Of a stretch of DNA of 37,141 nucleotides, positions 3,483 through 29,818 are shown piece after piece. The DNA is taken from positions 1 through 37,141 of the IMG/VR virus record IMGVR_UViG_3300032173_000017; one strand, written 5' to 3'. The translations under genes and the position numbers were made by a program. The number at the start of each line of letters is the position of its first letter. The first letter of the stretch is position 1. The notes below the pieces were generated by a model. That model saw nothing but the letters and a program-made list of their open reading frames with translations. It had not been told where the DNA came from and searched no databases. The DNA comes from a virus.

Positions 3483-3790
3483 TTCCGCCTCCGCGGCTTG
3501 AGCAGCGCGGCCACACGATGCCATATACAGCCGGACGACAGGATCGCGACCATCAGTTCGCGCAGCTGCGCAGCCGCCTGCTCCGCAGCGCGGACGTTAT
3601 CGCACAACAGCATCAGGGCATTATAGCGCGGAGCACGCCCGCCCAGCCGCGCCCGCTCAATCTCGACTGCCTGCTCAACCGCCTCACGCAGAACCGGCCA
3701 GATATCGCGCGTCGCGCAAATGTTTTCCCAGAGCTCCCCTACGACTCGGAGGGCCTGCTGCGCGTCCCGAAAGTCTGCCCGTCGTTTCAC
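3479..3790 (-). CDS. hypothetical helical protein, 103 aa
   Basis: A mostly alpha-helical basic protein with Ala, Arg, Glu and Leu heptad-like stretches (LREAVEQAVEIERARLGG, VRAAEQAAAQLRELMVAI) and a basic end (LLKPRRRK). It starts at GTG 3790, which overlaps the stop of the JAB peptidase gene (GTGA), behind GGGGGA. No domain is recognised. Tight coupling to the JAB gene suggests it is made in step with it and could be a partner, but that is inferred from position only. Confidence 0.7.
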   Translation of the reverse strand: MKRRADFRDAQQALRVVGELWENICATRDIWPVLREAVEQAVEIERARLGGRAPRYNALMLLCDNVRAAEQAAAQLRELMVAILSSGCIWHRVAALLKPRRRK

Positions 3791-4305
3791 AGCGTCCCCC
3801 GCAAGCCGCGCACAACCGCCGCGGCTTTTTCTTTCACATGCGGCATTTCCCTGCTCTCGATGGCGCTATAAACCCGCGGCTCGCCTGTTGGGGATCGGCC
3901 GATAATCAGGTCATCTACATAATCAATGTTCATTACCTCGCAAAAAGCCGCGATCGTCGAGCGCAGGCTCCTGTCTTCATCCGACGGCTCAACCTCTCCG
4001 GAGGGATGATTATGCGCCGTTATCAGCCCCTGCGCACTCCCGAGCAGCGCGTCCCGCATAACGGATCGCGCGTCAACATACGCGCACGTCGCACCACCAG
4101 CCCGCAGCCGATAACAGATTACGTCATAGCGCGCCGACAGATACAGGCACAGATGATGTTCATCGGCCAGGTTGTCGAGGAATACGCGCGCCGCGGCCGC
4201 CGCAAGCTCCGGCCGCACGATCCGCCGAAACCGGACGTCCCCCGCGGACGGGCCTGCCCGATATGTCGCGACAAGCTCGCGCAGTGCCACCGGCTTACCC
4301 GTCAT
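3787..4305 (-). CDS. RadC-type JAB/MPN-domain metallopeptidase-like protein
   Basis: This 172-residue protein carries the JAMM zinc motif. His98 and His100 in ITAHNHPSGEVEPSDED, with Ser108 and Asp111 at the HxHP...S-x2-D spacing, are the metal ligands and catalytic residues of JAB/MPN domains. LLGSAQGLITAHNHPSG is close to the RadC subgroup. The N-terminal helix-hairpin-helix of chromosomal RadC is absent, so this is a lone JAB domain of about 130 residues with an N-terminal extension. JAB proteins hydrolyse isopeptide or amide bonds in several systems, and biochemical roles for the RadC branch are uncertain. Here it shares an operon with an amidoligase and a class II amidotransferase, where a hydrolase for the product, or for a precursor, would make sense. 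The start ATG overlaps the stop of the 44-residue membrane protein gene. Confidence 0.88.
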   Translation of the reverse strand: MTGKPVALRELVATYRAGPSAGDVRFRRIVRPELAAAAARVFLDNLADEHHLCLYLSARYDVICYRLRAGGATCAYVDARSVMRDALLGSAQGLITAHNHPSGEVEPSDEDRSLRSTIAAFCEVMNIDYVDDLIIGRSPTGEPRVYSAIESREMPHVKEKAAAVVRGLRGTL

Positions 4306-8262: not shown

Positions 8263-8733
8263 TTAATCGCCTGTTTTAGCGTCTTCCACGGCTTCGGCCG
8301 CCGCATTGATCATATGTTCGCGTTCCCATTCCTCCAGCGCCCGCAGCAGCTCCGCGCGTTCCCGCGAGACATCCTCAAACGTGATCGTCGGCAATCCTTG
8401 TTCCAGCCGGCCCGCGTTATGGATCTGGGTATAGGCATAGGCCAGGTTTGCCAGGGTCGCCCGTTTCGCTTTATTTGGGTCGGTCATATGGTCGAGCAGG
8501 TATTTCTCCATCGCTTCGAGCAGCTCGACCTTCCGCTTTCGGAACGTTTCCAGGTCGGTGTCTAAAAGCTCCAGCACTCCGCTTATCCGCCGCTCGACGG
8601 CCTTGGCGGATACGCCCAACGCCTCTCCGATTTCGCGATATGTCGCTCCCGCCATCCGCATTTTGAGCATCTGGCCGGTCATCGCTTGAGTTTCCAATTT
8701 CTTGGACAATTGAACCAGCTTATTCTCTTTCAT
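8263..8733 (-). CDS. helix-turn-helix protein, possible small terminase or regulator, 156 aa
   Basis: Start at ATG 8733 (ATGA overlap with the upstream membrane protein gene). Residues at about 25-55 (MRMAGATYREIGEALGVSAK and on) form a typical helix-turn-helix, resembling sigma-70 region 4 or terminase small-subunit HTHs. A helical region follows, containing KAKRATLANLAYAYTQIHNA and EQGLPT, then an acidic tail. The HTH-plus-helices arrangement and the A-GRLEQGLPT stretch recall terminase small subunits and related phage HTH proteins. It lies in the early replication region, not next to the portal, so a regulator is equally possible. Confidence 0.75.
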   Translation of the reverse strand: MKENKLVQLSKKLETQAMTGQMLKMRMAGATYREIGEALGVSAKAVERRISGVLELLDTDLETFRKRKVELLEAMEKYLLDHMTDPNKAKRATLANLAYAYTQIHNAGRLEQGLPTITFEDVSRERAELLRALEEWEREHMINAAAEAVEDAKTGD

Positions 8734-8831
8734 TTCGCTTTCCAAACAAGGATGATTAGCGATAAGTATATGATAATACCCAGGATAAATGAAAGCAACA
8801 TAGTCCTGATCCGGTTTTGTCTCGTCATCAT
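8730..8831 (-). CDS. single-span membrane microprotein, 33 aa
   Basis: A 33-codon frame sits exactly between two genes. ATG 8831 overlaps the nuclease stop (ATGA, with GAGGGA as ribosome site) and its own stop overlaps the next ATG (ATGA). The sequence is a basic head (MMTRQNRIRT) and one long hydrophobic helix (MLLSFILGIIIYLSLIILVW) ending in KAK. This is the layout of a single-span membrane peptide with its N-terminus inside. Coupling on both sides argues that it is translated. The function is unknown. Confidence 0.75.
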   Translation of the reverse strand: MMTRQNRIRTMLLSFILGIIIYLSLIILVWKAK

Positions 8832-9406
8832 TGTCCCTCTGCCCAGGCATATATCCGGCGCATCGCCGGCCACATCGTAGAGGCGTCGGCCAGCTCTTCG
8901 GGCCGCAGTGTTATCAACCGGTGAGAGTCGGCCGTCAGGTAAAGTAGGGCCGCACCCTCCGCTTCGAGGCCGTGAGCTTTCAGTAAAAGGGCGTAGGCCG
9001 CAACTTGAAGATGGTGCCATTTCGCTATACCGCCGGTCTTGATATCAATTACGAAACGGCGGTCGTTGAGGATCCCCCAGAGGTCGGGCGTTCCCGCATA
9101 CCGCAGCTCGGCGTGATAAAACGGGATGTCATGGCCCTCGATCTTGAAGCCGGTTGTCATGATAAATTCGTGAAACTGCCGCAAGTATCCGGTGAGCAGC
9201 GGGTCCAGGCGCTCCATGTTCAGATTATCGTCGAGATAAAGCCGGATTGTGTCATGGACATATGTTCCCAGCTCCATCCCGTTCTTGCTTCCGGGCGGTG
9301 AAAAAAACCGCTTTATGACGGCCGAAACCGACGGGACGATGATGCCGTTATGCCGATAAACGTGCGTTTCCGGGGTAAAAGTCAGCTCTTCAGCTTGAAG
9401 CTCCAA
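8828..9406 (-). CDS. PD-(D/E)XK exonuclease, RecB/Cas4-like
   Basis: The start is TTG 9406, with AGGAG 7 nt upstream; a longer open frame reads back through the previous gene and is rejected. In the resulting 192-residue protein, GTYVHDTI (His51) is the motif-I helix, Asp108 in AGTPDLWG and Asp121-x-Lys123 in FVIDIKTG are the catalytic core, and Gln134 in QVAAYALLL is the RecB-family QxxxY motif. Such nucleases resect double-stranded ends 5' to 3' to produce single strands for a RecT/Bet annealing protein. One is encoded about 4 kb upstream in the same module, so the two probably form a phage two-component recombinase. Confidence 0.88.
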   Translation of the reverse strand: MELQAEELTFTPETHVYRHNGIIVPSVSAVIKRFFSPPGSKNGMELGTYVHDTIRLYLDDNLNMERLDPLLTGYLRQFHEFIMTTGFKIEGHDIPFYHAELRYAGTPDLWGILNDRRFVIDIKTGGIAKWHHLQVAAYALLLKAHGLEAEGAALLYLTADSHRLITLRPEELADASTMWPAMRRIYAWAEGQ

Positions 9407-9420
9407 TGGTATACTCCTCA

Positions 9421-9720
9421 CTAATTGATTGCGTCCCTGATCGCGCGCTTGCGGGCGGATTCGATTAGGGGCCGCAACTTGATCAGGCAAAGGGTGCGGA
9501 AGCCGTCTTTCCTGATCCTGTCGTCGCGCCGTGCGCAATAATTCCACTTGTCGTTGTAGGATTCGATGACGCCGTTGAGCGAGCCTTCGGTGATGCTGAT
9601 TTTGGGTAGGCGACTGCTCATCTCTTTCACCATGGCCAGATACAGGCTATATACGGCGTCGGTCGGGGTTTGTGTCTTAAGCAGGTCTTGATAAAGCTTA
9701 AAGAATCTCTGCGCTCGCAT
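9421..9720 (-). CDS. hypothetical protein, 99 aa
   Basis: I chose ATG 9720, with GAGAG 5 nt upstream, over GTG 9726 in the same frame. It is a basic helical protein with a Tyr/Leu-rich first half (FFKLYQDLLKTQTPTDAVYS) and an Arg-rich second half (RRDDRIRKDG, ESARKRAIRD). No domain is recognised. It overlaps the upstream gene by 23 bases and is followed by the PD-(D/E)XK nuclease gene after a 14-nt gap, so it belongs to the same transcript. The composition would allow nucleic-acid binding. Confidence 0.7.
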   Translation of the reverse strand: MRAQRFFKLYQDLLKTQTPTDAVYSLYLAMVKEMSSRLPKISITEGSLNGVIESYNDKWNYCARRDDRIRKDGFRTLCLIKLRPLIESARKRAIRDAIN

Positions 9721-10580: not shown

Positions 10581-10609
10581 ATTATACACTTGTTCTGTTA
10601 TTCTGTCAA
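10581..10609 (-). promoter_or_regulatory. consensus sigma-70 promoter (TTGACA-17-TATAAT)
   Basis: A perfect 12/12 promoter: TTGACA (10609-10604), 17 bp, TATAAT (10586-10581) on the minus strand. Transcription should start near 10574. The -35 overlaps the stop codon of the replisome organizer gene. It drives the string of small genes and the nuclease down to about 8263. Confidence 0.93.
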
Positions 10610-11439
10610 GCCTTTTTATGTTCTTTTTCCCACTGTTCCATTTTCGCCGATATCTCCAGGCCGTGTATGCCCAGGTTGTTCAGGCGTTGGACCTCTGCCC
10701 AATACTCGGGCGGCTTGTGTATCGTTGTGTTTTTACCGATCATGCTCGGCCGATATTCCGTGTTATTCGGGCCCTGCCTTGTGCCGCCTCTGTCCTGCGT
10801 CCTTGAAAGCCAATTCGTCAGGAACCTGCCGTAGTTTGAACGCGGCCGCTTTGTGGGATTCGCCACAAGCCAGGCTGCGGCCTTGGCCAACTCAACTTCT
10901 ATGTCGCAGGCGGGGTAGGCTTTCTTCCATAACGCCATTCGCTCTTCGGTGATCCCTTCCCACATAGTGGTGTCGCTAAAGGTTATCTTCTCTTCTCTTT
11001 TCTTTATCTTCTCTTCTCTTCTCTTCTCTTCTCTTGGGTCCGGATTTTCGGACATGGCGTCCGGATTTTCGGACATGGCGTCCGGATTTTCGGACATGAT
11101 TCGTCTTTTATGCCTGTCGGAGAGCTCATACTTTTCCCAATTATTGATTTTCAGGGTGCCGTCTGAATTTTTTGCTAATTTGGCTATTTTAGGATCCAGA
11201 CATTTTTGTATGGTTCTTTCTAATAGCTCTTTGGGTATCACTAACATACCGGCAAGCTGTTCGAGCCCATAAGGGCATCCCTCGTTGGCCCGAATATAGC
11301 CGTCGTCTTTTGAGCCCAGGGCCAGCAAATCTATCCAGACGCTGCGCTCTTCCGGCGTCAGCTCAATTCTCGTTGAGCCAAAAAGCCACTTATCCACCCA
11401 GAGGGGCAACCATTGACTATCAGAATATCGCTTTTTCAT
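10606..11439 (-). CDS. replication protein O / replisome-organizer-like helicase loader
   Basis: The 277-residue protein starts at ATG 11439, overlapping the upstream stop (ATGA). The N-terminal 90 residues (MKKRYSDSQWLPLWVDKWLF and on) match the winged-helix replisome organizer domain that recognises the origin. The middle is a repetitive spacer: MSENPDA three times, then REEKRREEKIKKREEKI. Residues from about 170 (AYPACDIEVELAKAAAWLVA, YGRFLTNWL) resemble the C-terminal domain of phage O/DnaD-like proteins, which bring the host replicative helicase to the origin. The spacer is encoded by three 21-bp repeats and a pyrimidine tract, the layout of an origin inside the initiator gene as in lambda O. 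No polymerase is seen in the window, so host replication machinery is probably used. Confidence 0.85.
   Translation of the reverse strand: MKKRYSDSQWLPLWVDKWLFGSTRIELTPEERSVWIDLLALGSKDDGYIRANEGCPYGLEQLAGMLVIPKELLERTIQKCLDPKIAKLAKNSDGTLKINNWEKYELSDRHKRRIMSENPDAMSENPDAMSENPDPREEKRREEKIKKREEKITFSDTTMWEGITEERMALWKKAYPACDIEVELAKAAAWLVANPTKRPRSNYGRFLTNWLSRTQDRGGTRQGPNNTEYRPSMIGKNTTIHKPPEYWAEVQRLNNLGIHGLEISAKMEQWEKEHKKA
10986..11035. repeat. homopyrimidine/homopurine tract next to the iterons
   Basis: About 50 nearly pure C/T bases on the plus strand (A/G on the minus strand), built from repeated CTTCT units, interrupted by a single A at 11006. It encodes the REEKRREEKI-rich stretch of the initiator and lies 3 bp from the three iterons. 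Such tracts adopt unusual helical structures, and the lambda origin likewise has an easily melted strand-biased segment beside its iterons. Confidence 0.8.
11039..11101. repeat. three 21-bp tandem iterons, candidate replication origin
   Basis: Units at 11039-11059, 11060-11080 and 11081-11101 share TCCGGATTTTCGGACATG. The first two are identical over 21 bp and the third differs only in its last three bases. With its upstream base each unit contains an inverted repeat, GTCCG-gatttt-CGGAC, suitable for binding a dimer of the initiator. They lie inside the initiator gene itself, next to the pyrimidine tract, which matches the layout of lambda ori. Confidence 0.78.
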
Positions 11440-11654
11440 CGGCCTTCTCCTGGTTTGATCCCAAAATGCTCGGCTTCCTTGTCCAGATACCATTGGTTGG
11501 TGAGCAGGTCGATGACATAGGAAAGACAGTTTACTTTATAGGTGCGCTCTTCACACCTGATCCAATTTCCATGCTCGTGGTCGCGCCTTGCCAGCAATAT
11601 CTCTTCCTGCCGAGCTGCCTTAAGGACTTCCAAGACTGTCGCCACATTGTCCAT
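11436..11654 (-). CDS. hypothetical protein, 72 aa
   Basis: A small soluble protein (VLEVLKAARQEEILLARRDH, then CLSYVIDLLTNQWYLDKEAE) with charged helices and two cysteines. ATG 11654 lies behind AGGGGA. Its stop overlaps the replisome organizer start (ATGA), and the upstream membrane protein gene ends 4 nt before it. No family is recognised. Its place just before the replication initiator hints at a replication accessory role, which is inference. Confidence 0.7.
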   Translation of the reverse strand: MDNVATVLEVLKAARQEEILLARRDHEHGNWIRCEERTYKVNCLSYVIDLLTNQWYLDKEAEHFGIKPGEGR

Positions 11655-15647: not shown

Positions 15648-18600
15648 TTATTTTTCCGGCAGGTTCTCGAATCTGACCTTGCCTTTGATCTCGTCCTGCA
15701 CCCACCGCAGGGTGTCGGCAGGACTGATAGTGTATTGCTTGTAGTTCTTCATTGCAACGCTCTCGGGTATCGGAGAAGCGCTGGTCATATAGGCGATGGT
15801 CAGGGCCTCATGAACCTCGGCGTTGTGGCGGGCGATCCGCTTGATGAGGGGGTCGCCCAGGGCTTTATACAGGGCAGGCACGTCGCCGCGCGCAGCGGCC
15901 ATGAGCAGCAGGCGGCCCTCCGTCGTGTCCATGTTCCTGCGGATCTCCCCGTAGGCCCGCTGCTGCAAGTCCTCATACCGGCCCACGATCTGCTTCTGCA
16001 TGTTCCGGATCTCATACTGCTCCTTGAGTCGGGCAGGCGTGAAGCCTAACCGCTTGCCCCGTATCTCGGCGTCGGTGAACTTAATGTAAAGGTCTTTTTG
16101 AACTTCCTTGCCTTCCTTGCGCCACAATTCTGCGGTCAGGTAGTTGCTCAAGGGCCGGATCGGGATCTGGGCAAATGCCTCGGCGAACCGTTTCCGCTGG
16201 ATGAGTTTCTGGGCGGTCGCCAGCCGTTCGCCCATGCCGTAGGCCGGACCCGCAAGCTGGCCGAGCGGGTCGAAGCCGGGCGACATTATCGTTCCCAGGT
16301 CGAGCATATCGGTCAGGTCGAGCTTGGCCCAGCCGCCGACGCCGTAGGATAAGAACTGCGCCATCGCTTCGGCCATCGGGTTTTCGGATGCCCGGCCTTT
16401 CATCAGTTCATATTCCGGGTCTTTCTTGAAGAGCGCCCTGGCAACGGCGCGCACGAGCGGCCACATCAATACACCCATCGGCACGAGTCTTTTCACTCCG
16501 AGAAACAGGGCCCTGCTCGTCATCATCCGTATTTTCGCCTTTGGTGTGCCCCGGGCCATTATGTCGGCAAATTCGTGCAAATAATTGAGATGCGTGGCCT
16601 TGAACAGGTAGGCGACCTTCACCAACCCACGAACCGAACCGGCCTGTGCTACCAACTCCGGGATGTTCGTCTTGCCGTAGGTGTAGGTTGAATACTCGAC
16701 GGCGTCCTTCATAGACTCATAAATATCAAGCGGCGAAGTCAGTTTGTCAAACCGGGTCGCCAGGATGTATCCGGCACAGGCGGCATGGAGCTTGTTCCAG
16801 AACTCCGTGCCGATGGCTACGAAGTGGAGCGCATCCAATATATTGCGGGCCCGGTCGCGCCCAGGGCCCAGCAGGGACTGCATGTATTGCCCGCTGACAA
16901 CCTTCTCGGTGATGGCCTTATCCAGCAGCATGGCCAGGGTCGGGTCAATCGTGGCGTGCTGGCCCTTAACCCGGGTGGCCAGATATCTGAAGGCATCCAT
17001 CATAGACTTGCTATACACAAAGTCCATAAATTGTTTACCTACATGATTTCCGATATACGGCCAGAGTGTGAACACGTTCTGCAGCACCTGCTGCAGGGCG
17101 AAGGTCGCGGACAGGGCCAGGGTCGCAAGCGAGATGCCCTGCCGGACGTGGACAAAATCCTTGCTGGAGCCGTAGATCGAATTCTCCAGGAAGTGGTTGT
17201 AATAGATACTCGCCTCCGGGTTTTTCTTGACGTCTATCTGGGCGATCCAGGGATTCGCTTGGTAGCGGGCGCGGGCCGAAGCGAGGCGGCGGGTGGTGGC
17301 CTCGACAAACGATTCGAGGCTTAACATCATGTCGTCGAAATCCACCTTGTAGCCCGGGACCCAGCGACGCTGCATGAAGTGCTTGTCCAGCGGCGAGCGC
17401 ATTTTGAGGAGCTTTATCATCATCTGGACATTCGGGTCTCCACGGTCGGCGCCGGCCTGCTCCACCAGATTCTCCAGGTCCCATGTGGACATCCTGTGGA
17501 AGCGATCCCAGAAGCCGGGCGGCAGCGTCTCGCGCCTGTAAACCTGCGCGTCCTTGTAGCCCATCTTCCGTATCAATTCAGCCACCTTGTTGGCTTCGGT
17601 GACGCTGGTGAACGCCGAGTAGAACGACTCATGTGCCACGCCCAGCCCCGCCCTCGGCTCGATCAGGGCCACCTCACCCGGCGACATCTCCTCTTTGGTG
17701 GCCCAAACGATCCAGGGGCCGTGGCGCTCAATGGGGAAATAGCCGCCCAGCTTTTCAAGGGCTTCGTCAATCCTGGCGTCTATTGCCTGTTTCGTAGGCT
17801 CGTCGGAACGATAGTAGTCAGACTGAAGCCGTAGCCGCTCGCGGATACGCTCCTTCGAGGCGTTGATGGCGTCCACGATCCTCTGGTAAACCTCAATCTC
17901 TTGAGGCGCCAGGCCGAAATTAGTTCGAAGCTGATCGGCACTCAAATACTTCTGGACTTCTTGCCTGTTGCCGTGGTCGAGGGCGTGGGCGATCTTATTC
18001 TTGGAGTCCCGAGGCAGGGAGTGAAGCTCCCGCAGGTTCAGGTTTTCCAGTGCCCCTGCGAGCGCGCCGTTGTAGAAGTAGATGAGATTGTCCTGAACGG
18101 CCCGGAATATCTTCCTGCCAGCGGGGTTCTTCATGAACAGGCCGCTCCACTGCGGCAGGAGGAAGGTATTCGTGGCGGCCCGCCGGATCTTCGTCGCCCA
18201 TAGCCTGCGGCCCGACTTCCCGGCTTCCCCCGGCAGCGGGACGAGATGTGTGACCCTGGCCGCCGCCTCTACGAACGGGTCAAAGAACTCATAAACCGGG
18301 TTGGGGCTCAAGTCTTCCGGCTTGATCTGGAGCTTTGCCGTGACGTCTTGGAGTTGCGGGAACCTGTTCCGCATCGCGTCCGTGAAGTTCGGAGCCAGCT
18401 GCTCGACGGCTTCCGGGTGCAGGGCGTTTGCGGCGAACCACATGGCGAATAGTTCGACCGGCGTCCAGCGATAATTCCGCACATAATCCGGCTGCGCCTG
18501 TATCAATTCGGGTGTTATCTCGCGGAAGAAGCTCGTGACTTCTTTAAGTTCGGCCAGGAAACCGGCCTCCATCTCCGTTCGGTAAGGGATGCCAGCCCGC

Positions 18601-21600
18601 TCGCACAACGTGTTCAGAGACTTTCCCCTGCCAATCTGTAAGATGTCAAAGGCGTGGCCGACCTCATGCGCGAAGGTGGCGACGCTGTTGATCGTGCCGA
18701 GCATGATTTGCGCGCCGCCGGTCAGCAGGCCGTAAACAAACGCGCCGTTGGCTTCCATTCTGGCGTTGATACTGAAATCGGTGCAGCCCAAAGATCTGGC
18801 GAAATCAATGAGATAGCCCTGAACCTTGGACGGGTCGAGGATGAGCCGGCCCATGCTTTCAAGGCCCCCGGCTATGATGTCTCCGAACTTCTTTCCGGTC
18901 TTCCAGACGGTTGTGCCCTTGCCCGCTTTTTCCTGCTTGTAGCGGTCGAGCGAGATGCGGCTCATAAATTCATCAGGAAGAATGACTTGGCCGTTTTCGA
19001 CATATTCGATTACGGCGGCGTGCTCGGCGTCATCCAGCTTGTCCCAATCCAGCCCGTAGAACTCGGCGACTTCCATCGCCCCGATTGTGGGCGGCGTCGG
19101 GTGGTCGCGCGAAGACATCACGCGCTCGAAGTCGGCTTCCTCGGCAGGCGTCCGCTTCTTGACCCGTTTCTTTTTGGTTGTTGGCTCGGCGGCGGGCTTG
19201 CCTTCCTCGGCGGGTGGAGCAATTTCTTTGCCCGATACCGGAATTTGCGGCTCAATGTCTATCTGGTCGTTAGGATAGGCCTGGTTGTAAGCCCTGATTG
19301 ATACGGGCAGGCCGTTCCAGTCCCGGATTTCGTATTTTGCGCCCATCATTATCGCTATGGGTTCTTCTTTCCCGCCTCTTACTTTTTGTCGTATAGTCAT
19401 TCCCTCGCCGTCTGCGGCCGTATAAAACCGCAGGGGTTCTTCCCCGTAGGCCCGGAGAAACGGAATCACGAAGTCGGCCCGCATCACGAAAGGTTGGCCG
19501 GTTGATTTTATCTTGAAGAGGGCGAATTGTTTAGGCACGTTGGTTTCTAATATGGTCGCCTGCCAAGCGTAATGGAACGGATTTTTGGAGATAGTCCAAA
19601 AATCTTCATCCCGTAGGCGGCCAACCCAACCGACGAGTTCCAACTCGTGTTCGGGCTTCATGCGTTCAACGAGACCGACTATGGACTTTTGCTTTATTTC
19701 TTTCTTGTAATTTTCATAGGTAAACTTAATATTATCATGGAGTTTGAATGCTATGTGCCCATCAGTGGCCCAGCCGACATTGCCCTGGGCTTGGTCTTCT
19801 GGGTCTGGGCTAATCATATCCTTGAGCGTAATTTGAGGATATAGTTTTGACAGTAGTTTGCGGCGGATGAAATATCTCAAGAACGAGATCCAGGGCTTCA
19901 TTTTGTGCCCAATGGTCATCGGCCCCCCATAGGGATTCAGCATCAAAAAGACGGCGCCATCAACCGCCATCGCCTTGGCCGTGGTGGGGGGTATTTCATC
20001 GGAGTCTTCCGTCGAGTTGGTGAGGTTAGCGATGGTGCCATTCCTGTCTGCGGCGGGCTTTACTTGATTGACGGTGACGCTGAAATCGGGCATTGACTCA
20101 CGTTCAATTTTTTTGATATTCGCGTCAAATCTCTCTTGCAGGCCATTGAGTATTTTCTTGTTGAGATCAACCAAGGGCCACCGGGCCGGGCCAAGCCACT
20201 CTGTCATGGATAGGAATCCATTGCGGAGCGACCCCAAGTAAGACTCGAATCTTGATGCTTGGGCGCCTTCATAAGCAAGCCCGAGGTTAATGACGGCCTC
20301 GTCGCGCAGGCCCAGCTTGTCGTATAGATACTCGATCTCCTTGGGCGTCAATTTTTCCAGCGGCCCATTTTCACGCTGTTCCTCTGCGAAGAATTCCGGC
20401 AGTAGTTGGAATATGCTTTTCAGGTAGCTTCTGATTTCGTCTTTGATGTCTAACGGGGCGCTCGTCAGCAGGCCTGCCATCTCGTCGATATCTCGGCCAA
20501 ATCGAATGACTGCGTAGAGTTGACCCATCCGGCTTGTAGAAGTCCCTTCCTTAAACGCAGGCGAAAACATTATCCTCTCAAGCACGTCCAGCATGGGGCG
20601 GACAGGCATCGCCGGCATTTCCTTGACCATGTATTGCATCAAGTCGTGCGAGAGACTTTGGAAAAGAGCGCGGCGGTCGTTTAAGCCGGGGGCCACGGTC
20701 TTGACTTCCGGCGGCGTTGCGGGAGAGGACGGTTCCGGCGGCGCTCCGGTCTCCGGCGGCACGGGTTCCGTCCCGGGTTCGGGTTTGGTTTCCGGTTCCG
20801 GCTCCGCTGAAATCTCAATCGGCTCTACGCGCGGTGCGGGCTCTGTCTGCGGTTCGGGAGCTTGCGGTATCGCCGCAGCCGCCGTAGGTTCAGTTGTGGG
20901 TTCAGCGGCCGTGGTCGGCTCCGTGCCTTTTTTGGCCTTTGTCTTCTTCCCGCCTTTCTTTTCAGCGGGCGGCAAGGTATAAATCGTCGTCGAGTCAACG
21001 TCGGGGTTAATTCCGGCCATCCGAACCAGCGTGTCAAGCGGGGCTGGCGAATAAACCGCAGGCGCTCCACGGCTCGTGCGGTAGGGCAGAAGAACCGCCT
21101 TCAGTTCGCCGTTGACTTTTGCAAGAAGTGCAGGATGCGCGGTATTTGTGATGGCCACGCTGAATTCGGCGTCAGGGAACATTCTTTTGATGCCCTGGAC
21201 GCGGAACTGCTCGTAGCCCGTGAAATATACCTTCCCGTCATGCATCGTCCTGAAAATAACTACATTGGGGGCAGCGACTTTTCTGGCCGCCGGAGTTTCC
21301 GGCCGGTATGCTGGCAGCGGATCCTTTGAGACGAGATAGAAACCACCCTGCATGTTGAGATAATAAACGGGGACAGCGGGTTCGCCTGTCATTTTCGAGA
21401 TCGTGGCGATAGCTTCTGCCGTAGGTGCAGATAGTGTCCTGGACGGTCGTGCCCACTTCGGCGGCTCGCCCTTGACATACAATTGCTTATCGGTGAACCA
21501 GGCCCCGTCGGCCGAAAGGGCATAGTTTCCCATCGCGGAGATGTTCCGACTCGAAAAGCCGAATGGGTCGCGCTTTAGCGTGTTGAACAGCCTGACAATG

Positions 21601-23345
21601 GAAGTGCGAACGGCCGCAGCCAGGCCGAGGGCATTCGGCGCCTTGATCAGCACGGTATTGGCGTGGCTTTGAGGCACGCCGCGGAAGGAGCTGGCGGCAT
21701 TGTCGGCCCGCGTCTTGAAGTCTTCCTCATTCAGGGCGTCGGATAAGTCAATGTCCGGGGCAGTCGGTATCTGGGGCTCTGAAACCGATGCGATGGGGAT
21801 CCCGACTTGAGCCGCCGGTTCCGGCGAAGGAACGGCTATGGGCGGGGCTTCCGGCGGCAGGGCAGTAGCAGGTTGCGCCTTCTTGGCCTGCAGGTCTTTT
21901 ACATAATCTTCGTGCGCTGCCCTGATTTTCTCCCCCATAATCTCGCCCATTTGAGCGAACCCTGAAAACAGGCCGCCCATAGAGAAACCCCAGAACATGC
22001 CTTCCTTCATCTCATCGTTGAACGCTACTTTATCGCCGCGAGCGCTTTGCTGGATCACGGCCTGAACGCCCTCCTCGCCCGCTTGCCATCCGCCTTCTAC
22101 TACCGCCACTCCCGCGAATTTCAGAAGTTTCACAATGGCGTTTGATTGTTGCTTCGAGATCTTGCCCGCCGAGACCAGGGCCAACAGGGCCTGACCAAAA
22201 TCAGAGCCGGTCAGAATCATGTTATTTTTGAACACTTTATCTGCGATGACCGCCGCCTCTTGAGGCGTTTTCCCTTTTTGTATGGCCGAATCATAGGCGT
22301 CGCCGCCTTCCATCGCCGATTCCTGAAGGCGGTTGATAACCCCGATCATCAATGATGTCACGGAGGGTGGCACGCCAGCGGAAGTCCCCGCAGCCGCCGC
22401 GATTGACGACAAAGCAAGCGACGGGGCCTGCAAGCCCAACTGTGAGCCTCCAGCCTCCATCAGATAGACGGGGTCGAATGCGCTTTTCAGGCCCTGCCAC
22501 TGCGTTTGAAAATCGGGAGCCGTGGCCCGCTCTATGGACTCGCCGAAGTGCTTGAAGGTGGTGCCTATGTTGCTCTTGGCTACGACTTCTTTTGTTTTCT
22601 GCTCTTCCGGCGTAGCCGGCACGTCTTCTGCGGCTGATAGTTTATCGCCGACGGTTTTCAGGTTGTCAGCAAGTTTCGCACCTTCGGGAGGTAGGTTCGC
22701 CTGGGATTCAATGAAGGCCCCCGTGAGCTGGAACATGGAGCCCAAGCCGCGGACAAAACTGCGGACGAACATTTTTGCTGCAAGGCCGCCGTATATGTCC
22801 GTTGGGGTAGCCCCCGCTGGCGTCCAGACGAACTCGCGCCATAGTTGGCCGGGCCGCTTCGTGACCGTAATGCCGGCCTTTTCTGCCAACGCTTCCAGCT
22901 CGGCATCGGATAATTTCGTAAACTCCGGCAGTTTGTCAGTTTCAGCCACGGCCTGCGTTTCATCGGCCAGGTCTTCTTGATACTTGGTCGTGTCAATTCC
23001 ATCCACATACCTATTGGGATGGTCAATCCCTTGAAGTTCGGCGCGATATTTGAACTGCGACGGCCAGTGCCATTGGTTGTCTTGCGGCGAGATGCCGGGC
23101 TTCTCCCCGGCCAGGAACGCGAGCCGATAATCGTAAAGGTGCAGGTCAGGGTCGGGGTCGGCGGCTATGCCTGTCTTTTTGGCCCAATCCTGATACCACT
23201 TCTGAAACTCCGGCTCTTTCTCGCCGAGGTCGTAAACGACTCCCCGTGCGTCAACCCGCGAGTCCTTCGGATATTTTATGAGCCGAATGCCTGCGAGTTT
23301 CGCGAGCTCTTCGTCGGAGAGCCTGGAGAGGTCCTGGTCGTTCAA
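15648..23345 (-). CDS. giant internal virion / polyvalent protein with zincin domain, 2,565 aa
   Basis: The largest gene, one-fifth of the window, starts at TTG 23345 behind AAGGTG. Two copies of an LSDxELxxLAxxAGI motif occur at about residues 7-18 and 142-157. Hydrophobic stretches lie at about 295-335 and again in the last quarter (SLATLALSATFALQQVLQNV, KRLVPMGVLMWPLVRAVARA). Pro/Glu/Thr linkers at about 796-886 and 1370-1400 divide it into parts. HEVGH at 1560-1564 (VATFAHEVGHAFDI) with ELFAMWFAA downstream is a zincin active site. This layout, at the end of the virion module between other Gln/Ala-rich proteins and the lysis genes, fits a large ejected protein of the T7 gp16 or polyvalent-protein type, which enters the host with the DNA. 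The metallopeptidase could cut envelope or host defence proteins. Close homologues are needed to assign subdomains. Confidence 0.9.
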   Translation of the reverse strand: MNDQDLSRLSDEELAKLAGIRLIKYPKDSRVDARGVVYDLGEKEPEFQKWYQDWAKKTGIAADPDPDLHLYDYRLAFLAGEKPGISPQDNQWHWPSQFKYRAELQGIDHPNRYVDGIDTTKYQEDLADETQAVAETDKLPEFTKLSDAELEALAEKAGITVTKRPGQLWREFVWTPAGATPTDIYGGLAAKMFVRSFVRGLGSMFQLTGAFIESQANLPPEGAKLADNLKTVGDKLSAAEDVPATPEEQKTKEVVAKSNIGTTFKHFGESIERATAPDFQTQWQGLKSAFDPVYLMEAGGSQLGLQAPSLALSSIAAAAGTSAGVPPSVTSLMIGVINRLQESAMEGGDAYDSAIQKGKTPQEAAVIADKVFKNNMILTGSDFGQALLALVSAGKISKQQSNAIVKLLKFAGVAVVEGGWQAGEEGVQAVIQQSARGDKVAFNDEMKEGMFWGFSMGGLFSGFAQMGEIMGEKIRAAHEDYVKDLQAKKAQPATALPPEAPPIAVPSPEPAAQVGIPIASVSEPQIPTAPDIDLSDALNEEDFKTRADNAASSFRGVPQSHANTVLIKAPNALGLAAAVRTSIVRLFNTLKRDPFGFSSRNISAMGNYALSADGAWFTDKQLYVKGEPPKWARPSRTLSAPTAEAIATISKMTGEPAVPVYYLNMQGGFYLVSKDPLPAYRPETPAARKVAAPNVVIFRTMHDGKVYFTGYEQFRVQGIKRMFPDAEFSVAITNTAHPALLAKVNGELKAVLLPYRTSRGAPAVYSPAPLDTLVRMAGINPDVDSTTIYTLPPAEKKGGKKTKAKKGTEPTTAAEPTTEPTAAAAIPQAPEPQTEPAPRVEPIEISAEPEPETKPEPGTEPVPPETGAPPEPSSPATPPEVKTVAPGLNDRRALFQSLSHDLMQYMVKEMPAMPVRPMLDVLERIMFSPAFKEGTSTSRMGQLYAVIRFGRDIDEMAGLLTSAPLDIKDEIRSYLKSIFQLLPEFFAEEQRENGPLEKLTPKEIEYLYDKLGLRDEAVINLGLAYEGAQASRFESYLGSLRNGFLSMTEWLGPARWPLVDLNKKILNGLQERFDANIKKIERESMPDFSVTVNQVKPAADRNGTIANLTNSTEDSDEIPPTTAKAMAVDGAVFLMLNPYGGPMTIGHKMKPWISFLRYFIRRKLLSKLYPQITLKDMISPDPEDQAQGNVGWATDGHIAFKLHDNIKFTYENYKKEIKQKSIVGLVERMKPEHELELVGWVGRLRDEDFWTISKNPFHYAWQATILETNVPKQFALFKIKSTGQPFVMRADFVIPFLRAYGEEPLRFYTAADGEGMTIRQKVRGGKEEPIAIMMGAKYEIRDWNGLPVSIRAYNQAYPNDQIDIEPQIPVSGKEIAPPAEEGKPAAEPTTKKKRVKKRTPAEEADFERVMSSRDHPTPPTIGAMEVAEFYGLDWDKLDDAEHAAVIEYVENGQVILPDEFMSRISLDRYKQEKAGKGTTVWKTGKKFGDIIAGGLESMGRLILDPSKVQGYLIDFARSLGCTDFSINARMEANGAFVYGLLTGGAQIMLGTINSVATFAHEVGHAFDILQIGRGKSLNTLCERAGIPYRTEMEAGFLAELKEVTSFFREITPELIQAQPDYVRNYRWTPVELFAMWFAANALHPEAVEQLAPNFTDAMRNRFPQLQDVTAKLQIKPEDLSPNPVYEFFDPFVEAAARVTHLVPLPGEAGKSGRRLWATKIRRAATNTFLLPQWSGLFMKNPAGRKIFRAVQDNLIYFYNGALAGALENLNLRELHSLPRDSKNKIAHALDHGNRQEVQKYLSADQLRTNFGLAPQEIEVYQRIVDAINASKERIRERLRLQSDYYRSDEPTKQAIDARIDEALEKLGGYFPIERHGPWIVWATKEEMSPGEVALIEPRAGLGVAHESFYSAFTSVTEANKVAELIRKMGYKDAQVYRRETLPPGFWDRFHRMSTWDLENLVEQAGADRGDPNVQMMIKLLKMRSPLDKHFMQRRWVPGYKVDFDDMMLSLESFVEATTRRLASARARYQANPWIAQIDVKKNPEASIYYNHFLENSIYGSSKDFVHVRQGISLATLALSATFALQQVLQNVFTLWPYIGNHVGKQFMDFVYSKSMMDAFRYLATRVKGQHATIDPTLAMLLDKAITEKVVSGQYMQSLLGPGRDRARNILDALHFVAIGTEFWNKLHAACAGYILATRFDKLTSPLDIYESMKDAVEYSTYTYGKTNIPELVAQAGSVRGLVKVAYLFKATHLNYLHEFADIMARGTPKAKIRMMTSRALFLGVKRLVPMGVLMWPLVRAVARALFKKDPEYELMKGRASENPMAEAMAQFLSYGVGGWAKLDLTDMLDLGTIMSPGFDPLGQLAGPAYGMGERLATAQKLIQRKRFAEAFAQIPIRPLSNYLTAELWRKEGKEVQKDLYIKFTDAEIRGKRLGFTPARLKEQYEIRNMQKQIVGRYEDLQQRAYGEIRRNMDTTEGRLLLMAAARGDVPALYKALGDPLIKRIARHNAEVHEALTIAYMTSASPIPESVAMKNYKQYTISPADTLRWVQDEIKGKVRFENLPEK

Positions 23346-28204: not shown

Positions 28205-29818
28205 TTAACCTGTTGTGGTCAAGCATTTGAAATCACTATCATATATCGGCCGGCCGTCAACGGCTTGTCTAACCTCGGCGGCCGTGCTTGTATATGTTCC
28301 ATCTGAAACGGATTCTGACGTGTCCACCCGGCCATCATTATCCGTATCATAAACCGATTTAAGCATATCACCCGAACCGCCTCCGCCCCCGAGCGGCACC
28401 CACGAAGAGGTCGGCCCATCCCACCGGTAGTAGCCCTTGCCGCTTCCGGGATCCCAATTTGTGCCGTCGGCGTAGGCGAGGAGCCCGTCGAACCTGATGT
28501 CGTCAGGCGGTTCGGATTTACCGGCTTCCGGCCAGACGGCAGGCAGCGACCAACGCAATATCTCGAAAAGGTCGCGTTGGTCAACCGGTTTGGGATATCC
28601 CCTTGTTTCGCCTTTTCTTACGATATCAACCCATTCGCTGCCGGCCCCAGAATCGGATATTTCCTTGTATGGGGACGAAGGGTCAGCGATGGACACGCTG
28701 TCAACGCCGGAACCGGAATCCGCGAGATTGACCTGAATCAATAAGCCAATCTCATCCGCGCCAGCCCCGACGTCTGCCAGGGAAGCCGCCGCTAATATGG
28801 AAACCAGGTCAGAACCGGTTCCGGAGTCGCTCACGGCGCCTTGCCAAAGGATGCTAATGGCGTCTGAACCTGCCCCGACGTCTGCCAGGGAAGCCGCCAC
28901 TAATATGGAAACCAGGTCAGAACCGGTTCCGGAGTCGCTCACGGCGCCTTGCCAAAGGATGCTAATGGCGATAGATTCCGAACCCGCACCAGAATCGGAG
29001 GCCGTAAGCAAGGCCAGAATGTCCGCGACGATGTCGGACCCCGTCGCCACGTCTTGAACGGAGAGTGCGGCGAGTAGGGAGGCAATGGAATCGGAGCCCG
29101 CGCCAGAATCGGAAAGCGCAAGCGTAGCACTAACTCCGGCTATCGCGTCCGCTCCCGTGCCGGAGTCCGAGACGCTGATAGGCGTAATCGCTATATATTG
29201 CTTTAGCTCGACCAGGGAAGCCACATAATAGTCGGTATTGACTGCCGTCGCCGCAATATCGCCCGTGGCCCCTGCCGCCGTGTATTCCTTCGTCGCCACC
29301 GTCGCGGAAATGTTGCTATTGCTCGTGCCTGTCTGCGTATCCGCCCGTTCGTCATATCCCGACGGCGGTGTGTAAGTAGTGCCGTAGGCATTCCCGGCCA
29401 AAAACACGGCCCAATTGTTGGCCGTCTGGATGTTAATGCCCGGAGCTGTCGGCTGACCCGACGCCGTTGATGTTGATGTGTTTTTGTTTCCGATCGGGCT
29501 GGTCTGGTCAACACCTCTGAATGTCGCAATCTGACCGATTATCTCATGACTGGAGCTCATGCCCCACTGGTAGGAGGACGGCTCGCTGGCTCCCGCGATT
29601 TTCCAGTAAACATACTCGCGTATCGCCCGCGCCCCGGCCGAGGCGTTGATGATATTCGTCCAGCCGTCTGGGACACTATTTATGAGGTCGGAGGTGTTTT
29701 CGATGAAGATATGGGCAACCATCAGGTCGCCCTCGGCCGTGTTTGTGGGCTTATTAACAGTTATAGAGACCGCAGCGGCCGAGGCTGCAGTCTCCGCATT
29801 AATGAAAGTTATCGCCAT
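28205..29818 (-). CDS. tail protein with ten DSG-type repeats, 537 aa
   Basis: Residues from about 1 to 200 form a beta-rich domain (MAITFINAETAASAAAVSIT, NWAVFLAGNAYGTTYTPPSG), similar to virion carbohydrate-binding or hydrolase-linked domains. Residues 215-395 hold about ten units of the type SDSGTGADSI, several in long repeats of about 36 residues (SILWQGAVSDSGTGSDLVSI). A linker with YPKPVDQRDLFEIL leads to a C-terminal module (MLKSVYDTDNDGRVDTSESV, DSDFKCL) shared with the 27554 protein. The DNA of two units is almost identical (28764-28970). It is a candidate receptor-binding or adhesin-like tail component. Confidence 0.82.
   Translation of the reverse strand: MAITFINAETAASAAAVSITVNKPTNTAEGDLMVAHIFIENTSDLINSVPDGWTNIINASAGARAIREYVYWKIAGASEPSSYQWGMSSSHEIIGQIATFRGVDQTSPIGNKNTSTSTASGQPTAPGINIQTANNWAVFLAGNAYGTTYTPPSGYDERADTQTGTSNSNISATVATKEYTAAGATGDIAATAVNTDYYVASLVELKQYIAITPISVSDSGTGADAIAGVSATLALSDSGAGSDSIASLLAALSVQDVATGSDIVADILALLTASDSGAGSESIAISILWQGAVSDSGTGSDLVSILVAASLADVGAGSDAISILWQGAVSDSGTGSDLVSILAAASLADVGAGADEIGLLIQVNLADSGSGVDSVSIADPSSPYKEISDSGAGSEWVDIVRKGETRGYPKPVDQRDLFEILRWSLPAVWPEAGKSEPPDDIRFDGLLAYADGTNWDPGSGKGYYRWDGPTSSWVPLGGGGGSGDMLKSVYDTDNDGRVDTSESVSDGTYTSTAAEVRQAVDGRPIYDSDFKCLTTTG
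28764..28970. repeat. 99-bp direct repeat (108-bp period) in the DSG-repeat gene
   Basis: Bases 28764-28862 and 28872-28970 are identical except for one G/A difference, and are offset by 108 bp (36 codons). They encode ILWQGAVSDSGTGSDLVSI plus the following ADVGAGSD unit twice. The near-identity at DNA level points to recent tandem duplication, so repeat number may vary between related phages. Confidence 0.92.

Follow-up and report, generated by a model that had tools for sequence, protein, structure and literature searches.

Iterons and a pyrimidine tract within an initiator gene

The window (the whole 37,141-nucleotide stretch of IMG/VR virus record IMGVR_UViG_3300032173_000017 analysed here) contains a gene for a replisome-organizer-type initiator, in which three tandem 21-bp iterons and a tract with a five-base period lie between the parts encoding the N-terminal winged-helix domain and the C-terminal domain (Table 1). 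An alternative in-frame ATG at 11493 would extend the initiator to 295 residues. The N terminus matches Phage_rep_org_N (PF09681) with 25.2 bits (E 1.8e-5), over the gathering score of 23.3, which upholds the preliminary description's placement of the repeats inside a replisome-organizer-like gene. Against TIGR01714 the protein scores 30.8 bits, under the NCBIfam cut-off of 49.8, and its relatives L004, L023 and L002 score 40–45 bits against PF09681. On sequence grounds, the window protein is a divergent member of the Phage_rep_org_N replisome organizers.

Table 1 Coordinates of the initiator gene, its domains and its embedded repeats in the window
Feature	Position	Strand	Detail
Initiator (replisome-organizer) gene	10606-11439	-	277 aa from start at 11439; PF09681 match
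Winged-helix core, residues ~29-98	11146-11355	-	AlphaFold2 pLDDT mostly 94-98
Short basic helix DRHKRRIMSE, residues 108-117	11089-11118	-	AlphaFold2 model; proposed iteron-reading helix
Iteron 1 in coding order	11080-11100	.	ATGTCCGAAAATCCGGAC plus flank
Iteron 2	11059-11079	.	21-bp unit
Iteron 3	11038-11058	.	21-bp unit
Period-5 tract, candidate DNA-unwinding element	10986-11035	.	Coding strand AAGAG, 49/50 purines
C-terminal domain	10789-10971	-	W...YPACDIEVEL...NWLSR.QD.GGT type; shared with relatives

The repeat and dyad scans recovered the three 21-bp tandem units, each with a GTCCG/CGGAC dyad, that had been described at this place, and put them at 11038–11100. In order of position, the head-to-tail copies are 100%, 100% and 90% identical to the reference, and an 18-bp core (TCCGGATTTTCGGACATG) is identical in three of three units; the period-21 array scores 122 and the period-5 array 77 (TRF). 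Across the window, the mismatch-free GTCCG-N6-CGGAC dyad occurs at the three iterons only and CGGAC-N5-GTCCG at the two iteron junctions only, and the dyad-pattern scan found no second array of the iteron elsewhere in the window. Two adjacent window units have no exact-DNA match in IMG/VR. The repeated peptide MSENPDA reported earlier is encoded by units 1 and 2, whereas unit 3 reads MSENPDP. Because 15% of random synonymous codings of MSENPDA reach a 5-bp dyad arm, the window dyad alone was dropped as evidence, and it is the relatives, rather than the window, that make the dyad significant.

The neighbouring stretch, previously given as a 50-base pyrimidine tract, has the position and composition then described except for a single A at 11006, so that 49 of its 50 bases are pyrimidines on the plus strand. 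The resulting runs of 20 and 29 bases are longer than any other one-type run in the window. With 66% A+T versus ~42% genome-wide, the tract is moderately rather than extremely A+T-rich.

In the AlphaFold2 model, a low-confidence stretch between the domains of the window protein (residues 122–133) is encoded by the repeats. The model of a relative, L044, has a single helix (residues 107–134, with the key residue at 121) followed by a disordered segment (142–176). With VIA-align, a relative's winged-helix model matches winged helices with Z 8–9, including the solved plasmid initiators 4pql, 4pt7, 5kbj and 4pta (Z 8.0–8.8 over 83–89 residues), which we take to be RepA_N-type initiators; as these tie in Z with the CRP and NtcA winged helices, we claim no kinship. 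Membership in RepA_N (PF06970) was rejected, with no match at E up to 1, the resemblance being confined to the fold of the winged helix. The protein is likewise not recognisable as a lambda O homologue, since Pfam at the same E limit lists PF09681 and one irrelevant weak match only. Foldseek gave no match at E ≤ 0.001 for either model, a PDB sequence search with the window protein gave nothing useful, and the relatives' profile gave a weak DnaD match in the PDB that lies outside the DNA-binding part. The window-type C-terminal domain is common to L004, L017 and L023, and is presumed to contact a helicase or helicase loader.

Conservation of the layout in relatives of the window

Profile searches identified five members of the window subfamily in IMG/VR (L004, L002, L017, L018 and L019) and one in a Deltaproteobacteria MAG contig (L023). 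A further member, L279, was added through a blind search of IMG/VR for window-like iteron DNA patterns, which led to three places: L004's own contig, L279 and the contig L277. In seven of the seven further relatives, dyad iterons followed by a short-repeat tract occupy the same place, while the sequences, the encoded peptides and the tracts differ. The winged-helix domain and a short basic segment are immediately followed by the iterons, mostly at 21-bp spacing. They comprise three units encoding MAEKADT in L004, two to three encoding MATQPDI in L019 and five encoding SVTSETE in L023; L002 has four units with a CAAACG-N5-CGTTTG dyad, and the dyads of L017 and L018 are TGTAACG-N5-CGTTACA and TTCCG-N7-CGGAA, respectively. 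The lambda-like layout suggested at the outset, with iterons and an unwinding-type tract inside the initiator gene that together encode an interdomain linker, is thus borne out by relatives that keep its position and parts while its sequence changes.

The tract has period 5 in six of the seven scored members, the window included, and the unit differs by member (AAGAG, AAATC, ATCAC/ATATC, AGAAG/AGAAT, AGTAG and AAATC). In these six the lag-5 match is 0.74–0.97, versus codon-shuffle maxima of 0.57–0.69; the exception is L002, whose A+T-rich tract lacks this period. In L279, the iterons are present and the period of five in the tract is weak (0.60). In the window, the ten AAGAG copies are out of step with the codons and all three frames are open, as would suit a phase-variable contingency locus in which slippage of the pentamer tract shifts the frame and toggles the initiator. 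However, L018, L019 and L279 keep period 5 with imperfect, divergent units in which little slippage is expected, and an initiator gene is expected to be essential; we regard phase variation as extremely improbable. As the unwinding tract of an embedded origin, which is how we read it, the element is conserved in the window clade in its period of five and not in its sequence.

Two related arrangements were noted. In the Ruminococcus phage phiRgIBDN1 (L015, 958–1776), a different N-terminal domain precedes the window-type C terminus, the direct repeats are GTCAACC and the tract has period 5 (0.69), the same layout with another initiator head. In L277 (IMGVR_UViG_3300049472_000168, 138 kb, unrelated), six or more CGGACATNATGTCC-type dyads, some at 21-bp spacing, form an intergenic array at ~3537–3800, outside any initiator gene, with a purine-rich pentamer-like stretch adjoining and a GroEL-like gene downstream. 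It is possibly a separate origin or operator with the same half-site.

The comparison was extended to 76 non-redundant Firmicute-phage relatives, whose half-sites occupy two or three codon phases and whose iteron-encoded peptides differ in 73 of 76. Codon choice within the iterons is skewed relative to the winged-helix part: AAC makes up 94% versus 41% of Asn codons (p 9e-32), CAC 86% versus 33% of His codons and ACT 4% versus 32% of Thr codons. Together, the phases, peptides and codon skew point to a protein-binding DNA site within the coding region, not a peptide repeat. Among the Firmicute relatives, the tract repeats with period 6 in 74 of 86; in this group its A+T content is 76%, and purines make up 78% of its coding strand.

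These features bear on the alternative that the repeats act as a peptide-level linker only, being slippage products that matter for the flexible, acidic and basic linker they encode and not as DNA. The repeats do encode the low-confidence interdomain stretch, and a 21-bp unit stays in frame in an array of a kind that readily expands by slippage. Yet the relatives' codon bias, their multiple codon phases and their different peptides for the same DNA half-sites, the retention of period 5 out of step with the codons and the covariation of the half-site with a distant residue (below) all speak against it, and we consider this explanation very unlikely.

Two loci depart from the common order. A K-type initiator (L039, 1498–2619) lacks iterons and has an HNH-like sequence (GTCTYCGNAAKTLDHLIPKSHGG) in their place, which raises the question of whether a homing-endonuclease-like element inserted into the origin segment. 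In L046, the short-repeat tract precedes the GTAACGTTAC iteron, the reverse of the usual order.

A helix residue and the iteron half-site

Numbering in the basic helix starts from the W conserved in the NWEKHQ motif, and position W+20 lies between two near-invariant arginines, R(W+19) and R(W+24). With the first 40 relatives in hand, we wrote down a rule in which K or N at W+20 goes with GTCAC/GTGAC and V, Q, L or I with GTAAC/GTTAC; 42 of the 76 relatives came from loci fetched afterwards. The W+20 residue predicts the majority half-site class in 76 of the 76 Firmicute relatives, one of which has M, a residue unnamed in the rule, and falls with GTAAC. Twelve phages have mixed iterons, and in these the majority iteron follows the rule. 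W+20 carries 0.975 of the 0.975 bits of information on half-site class, followed in the same helix by W+23 (0.77), W+21 (0.57) and W+16 (0.38), whereas positions of the winged-helix domain have an excess of at most ~0.09 bits each.

Half-site class changes 24 times on the winged-helix tree, nearly as many as the 25–28 changes in the three label shuffles listed. Of the independent contrasts on this tree, 11 have branch support, and residue matches half-site in 11 of these 11; counting unsupported branches as well gives 24 contrasts. Natural swaps, in which the winged-helix domains are 96–100% identical while helix and iterons both differ, are found in CRBO14221 and L093, phages 71 and 187, StB20 and S-CoN_Ph24, and L044 and L063. 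The covariation would tie specificity to the helix that follows the winged-helix domain, not to the winged-helix domain itself.

The correspondence recurs beyond this set. At the aligned position in the ul36/IPP63-like clade, in which four members were left unscored, K goes with GGACA/TGTCC in ten of ten and I or M with A:T in six of six, 16 of 16 in total. In the window subfamily, read by eye, R occurs with the CGGAC half-site (G:C) in the window, L004, L019 and L279, and I, V or W with AAC (A:T) in L023, L017 and L002; L018 is ambiguous. The equivalent residue of the window protein is R113 (encoded at 11101–11103), an assignment that could be off by one because R112 and R113 are both arginine. 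Across about 100 relatives, this pattern suggests that one amino acid of the initiator predicts one base pair of its site.

The main caveat to the rule is that the helix adjoins the iterons, so that co-transfer could keep both matched without contact. Against linkage alone, different W+20 residues give the same half-site class, and flips occur within similar helix backgrounds, as in TRLRN (L244) and TRLRV (L254), or NAERN (L057) and NAERV (L060). The rule is also not complete, since a replacement of R by A at W+19 goes with other half-sites: L203, L204, L205 and L218, and likewise L200, L225 and L231, have TCTACTGTAGA or GTCAATGAC iterons, which suggests further rules. The N-x7-R spacing and the CRE/G-box-like sites resemble those of bZIP proteins; this is a resemblance only, and homology of the basic helix was rejected after six helix segments gave no bZIP match in Pfam.

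On balance, we lean towards the view that helix, iterons and tract form an exchangeable specificity cassette. In such a cassette, a basic or amide residue (K, N or R) at one helix position would pair with G:C of the half-site and Q or a hydrophobic residue (V, I, L, M or W) with A:T, phages would swap the whole between near-identical initiators, and in the window clade a five-base period, not a sequence, would mark the tract.

A candidate origin and its known counterparts

The repeats are, with high likelihood, the replication origin of the phage embedded in its own initiator gene. The analysis covers the anatomy of the locus, its conservation despite sequence change, the constraint at the DNA rather than the peptide level and the helix–iteron covariation in relatives; binding, melting, helicase recruitment and origin activity are inferred. 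In the proposed mechanism, the N-terminal winged-helix domain and the basic helix would bind the three dyad iterons, whose 21-bp spacing, equal to two helical turns, would align the bound proteins on one face of the DNA and build a complex. The complex would open the adjoining purine/pyrimidine tract of period 5, with the C-terminal domain recruiting the helicase or its loader. The linker peptide itself would be of little importance, because the iterons and the tract double as code for a flexible linker.

Origins inside initiator genes are known from lambda, SPP1, pSK41 and 80alpha, and the architecture of the window is therefore of a known kind. Lambda-type gene O has mid-gene iterons with imperfect inverted-repeat symmetry and an A+T-rich flank, and additional iterons lengthen the protein (PMC7466680). 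The window resembles gene O of lambda and Stx phages in having iterons inside the initiator gene beside such a region, but differs in its Phage_rep_org_N domain, its 21-bp units, its period-5 tract and the lack of a recognised P-like loader nearby. In SPP1, oriL lies in gene 38, the initiator gene, and combines direct repeats with an unwinding element that is A+T-rich (PMC6316719); SPP1 also has an oriR ~13 kb away, whereas the scan of the window found no second array of its iteron. In the RepA_N plasmid pSK41, an N-terminal winged helix binds Rep boxes in rep, and the origin, central in rep, encodes a linker that is dispensable in the protein, since a linker deletion still rescues replication; in pPR9, the N-terminal domain and the origin are exchangeable together (PMC5703833). 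The window shares the N-terminal winged helix and a linker encoded by the candidate origin, but has no RepA_N Pfam match.

Genetic support for an embedded origin comes from the initiator gene ORF20 of Staphylococcus phage 80alpha, which is not complementable in trans and which, with ORF21, is sufficient for plasmid replication (PMC5499656). Its annotated rep_origin lies within ORF20 and has the same order of iterons and then a short-repeat A+T-rich tract. We rejected placing ORF20 in the N-terminal family of the window, as it has a weak HTH_36 match and no Phage_rep_org_N; its C terminus, unlike that of the window protein, is Phg_2220_C.

The same data weigh on the possibility that the repeats are an operator rather than an origin, to which the initiator binds to regulate its own or downstream transcription. 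Iteron binding and autoregulation often coincide, and the similar dyad array in the unrelated L277 is intergenic, but in the window and its relatives the position deep in the coding region beside a short-repeat tract is conserved, and the 80alpha data indicate origin function for this layout. We judge a purely regulatory role to be very unlikely, and note that operator and origin functions are not mutually exclusive. New in the embedded-origin reading are three things: the tract of pentamers, the clade outside the Firmicutes and the rule linking residue to base. In the open-access literature searched, outside which most subscription papers lie, we found no account of the helix–iteron covariation, the pentamer tract or the clade.

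To our knowledge, few origins have been mapped so far in this large phage initiator family. If the rule holds, the position of the origin and the specificity of the initiator for it would be readable from sequence alone, and a single K-to-V change would be predicted, testably, to shift specificity from GTCAC to GTAAC. The frequent swaps of helix and iterons among near-identical initiators suggest that prophages and satellites sharing a host are selected for origins that do not cross-react. The five-base period and its conservation offer an entry point for studying how initiators of this type open DNA.

GC skew had been put forward as a check for an origin at the repeats, and its outcome went against that position. 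The change point of third-codon-position skew, well above the block-permutation null, falls at 8671–9452 (left −0.19, right +0.05), ~2 kb from the repeats rather than at 11 kb; its sign fits forks that leave a point near 8.7–9.5 kb. As the change point lies away from 11 kb, we did not use it as support for the origin. Among the neighbouring genes scanned, no helicase or helicase-loader gene was recognised, and small ORFs of no assigned function remain; the window has no tRNA or Rfam feature. Elsewhere in the window, a near-perfect 108-bp tandem duplication (28764–28970) lies in a 537-aa ORF on the minus strand (28205–29818), and a 2565-aa ORF (15648–23345), about one-fifth of the contig, resembles by eye a large phage internal or polyvalent protein.
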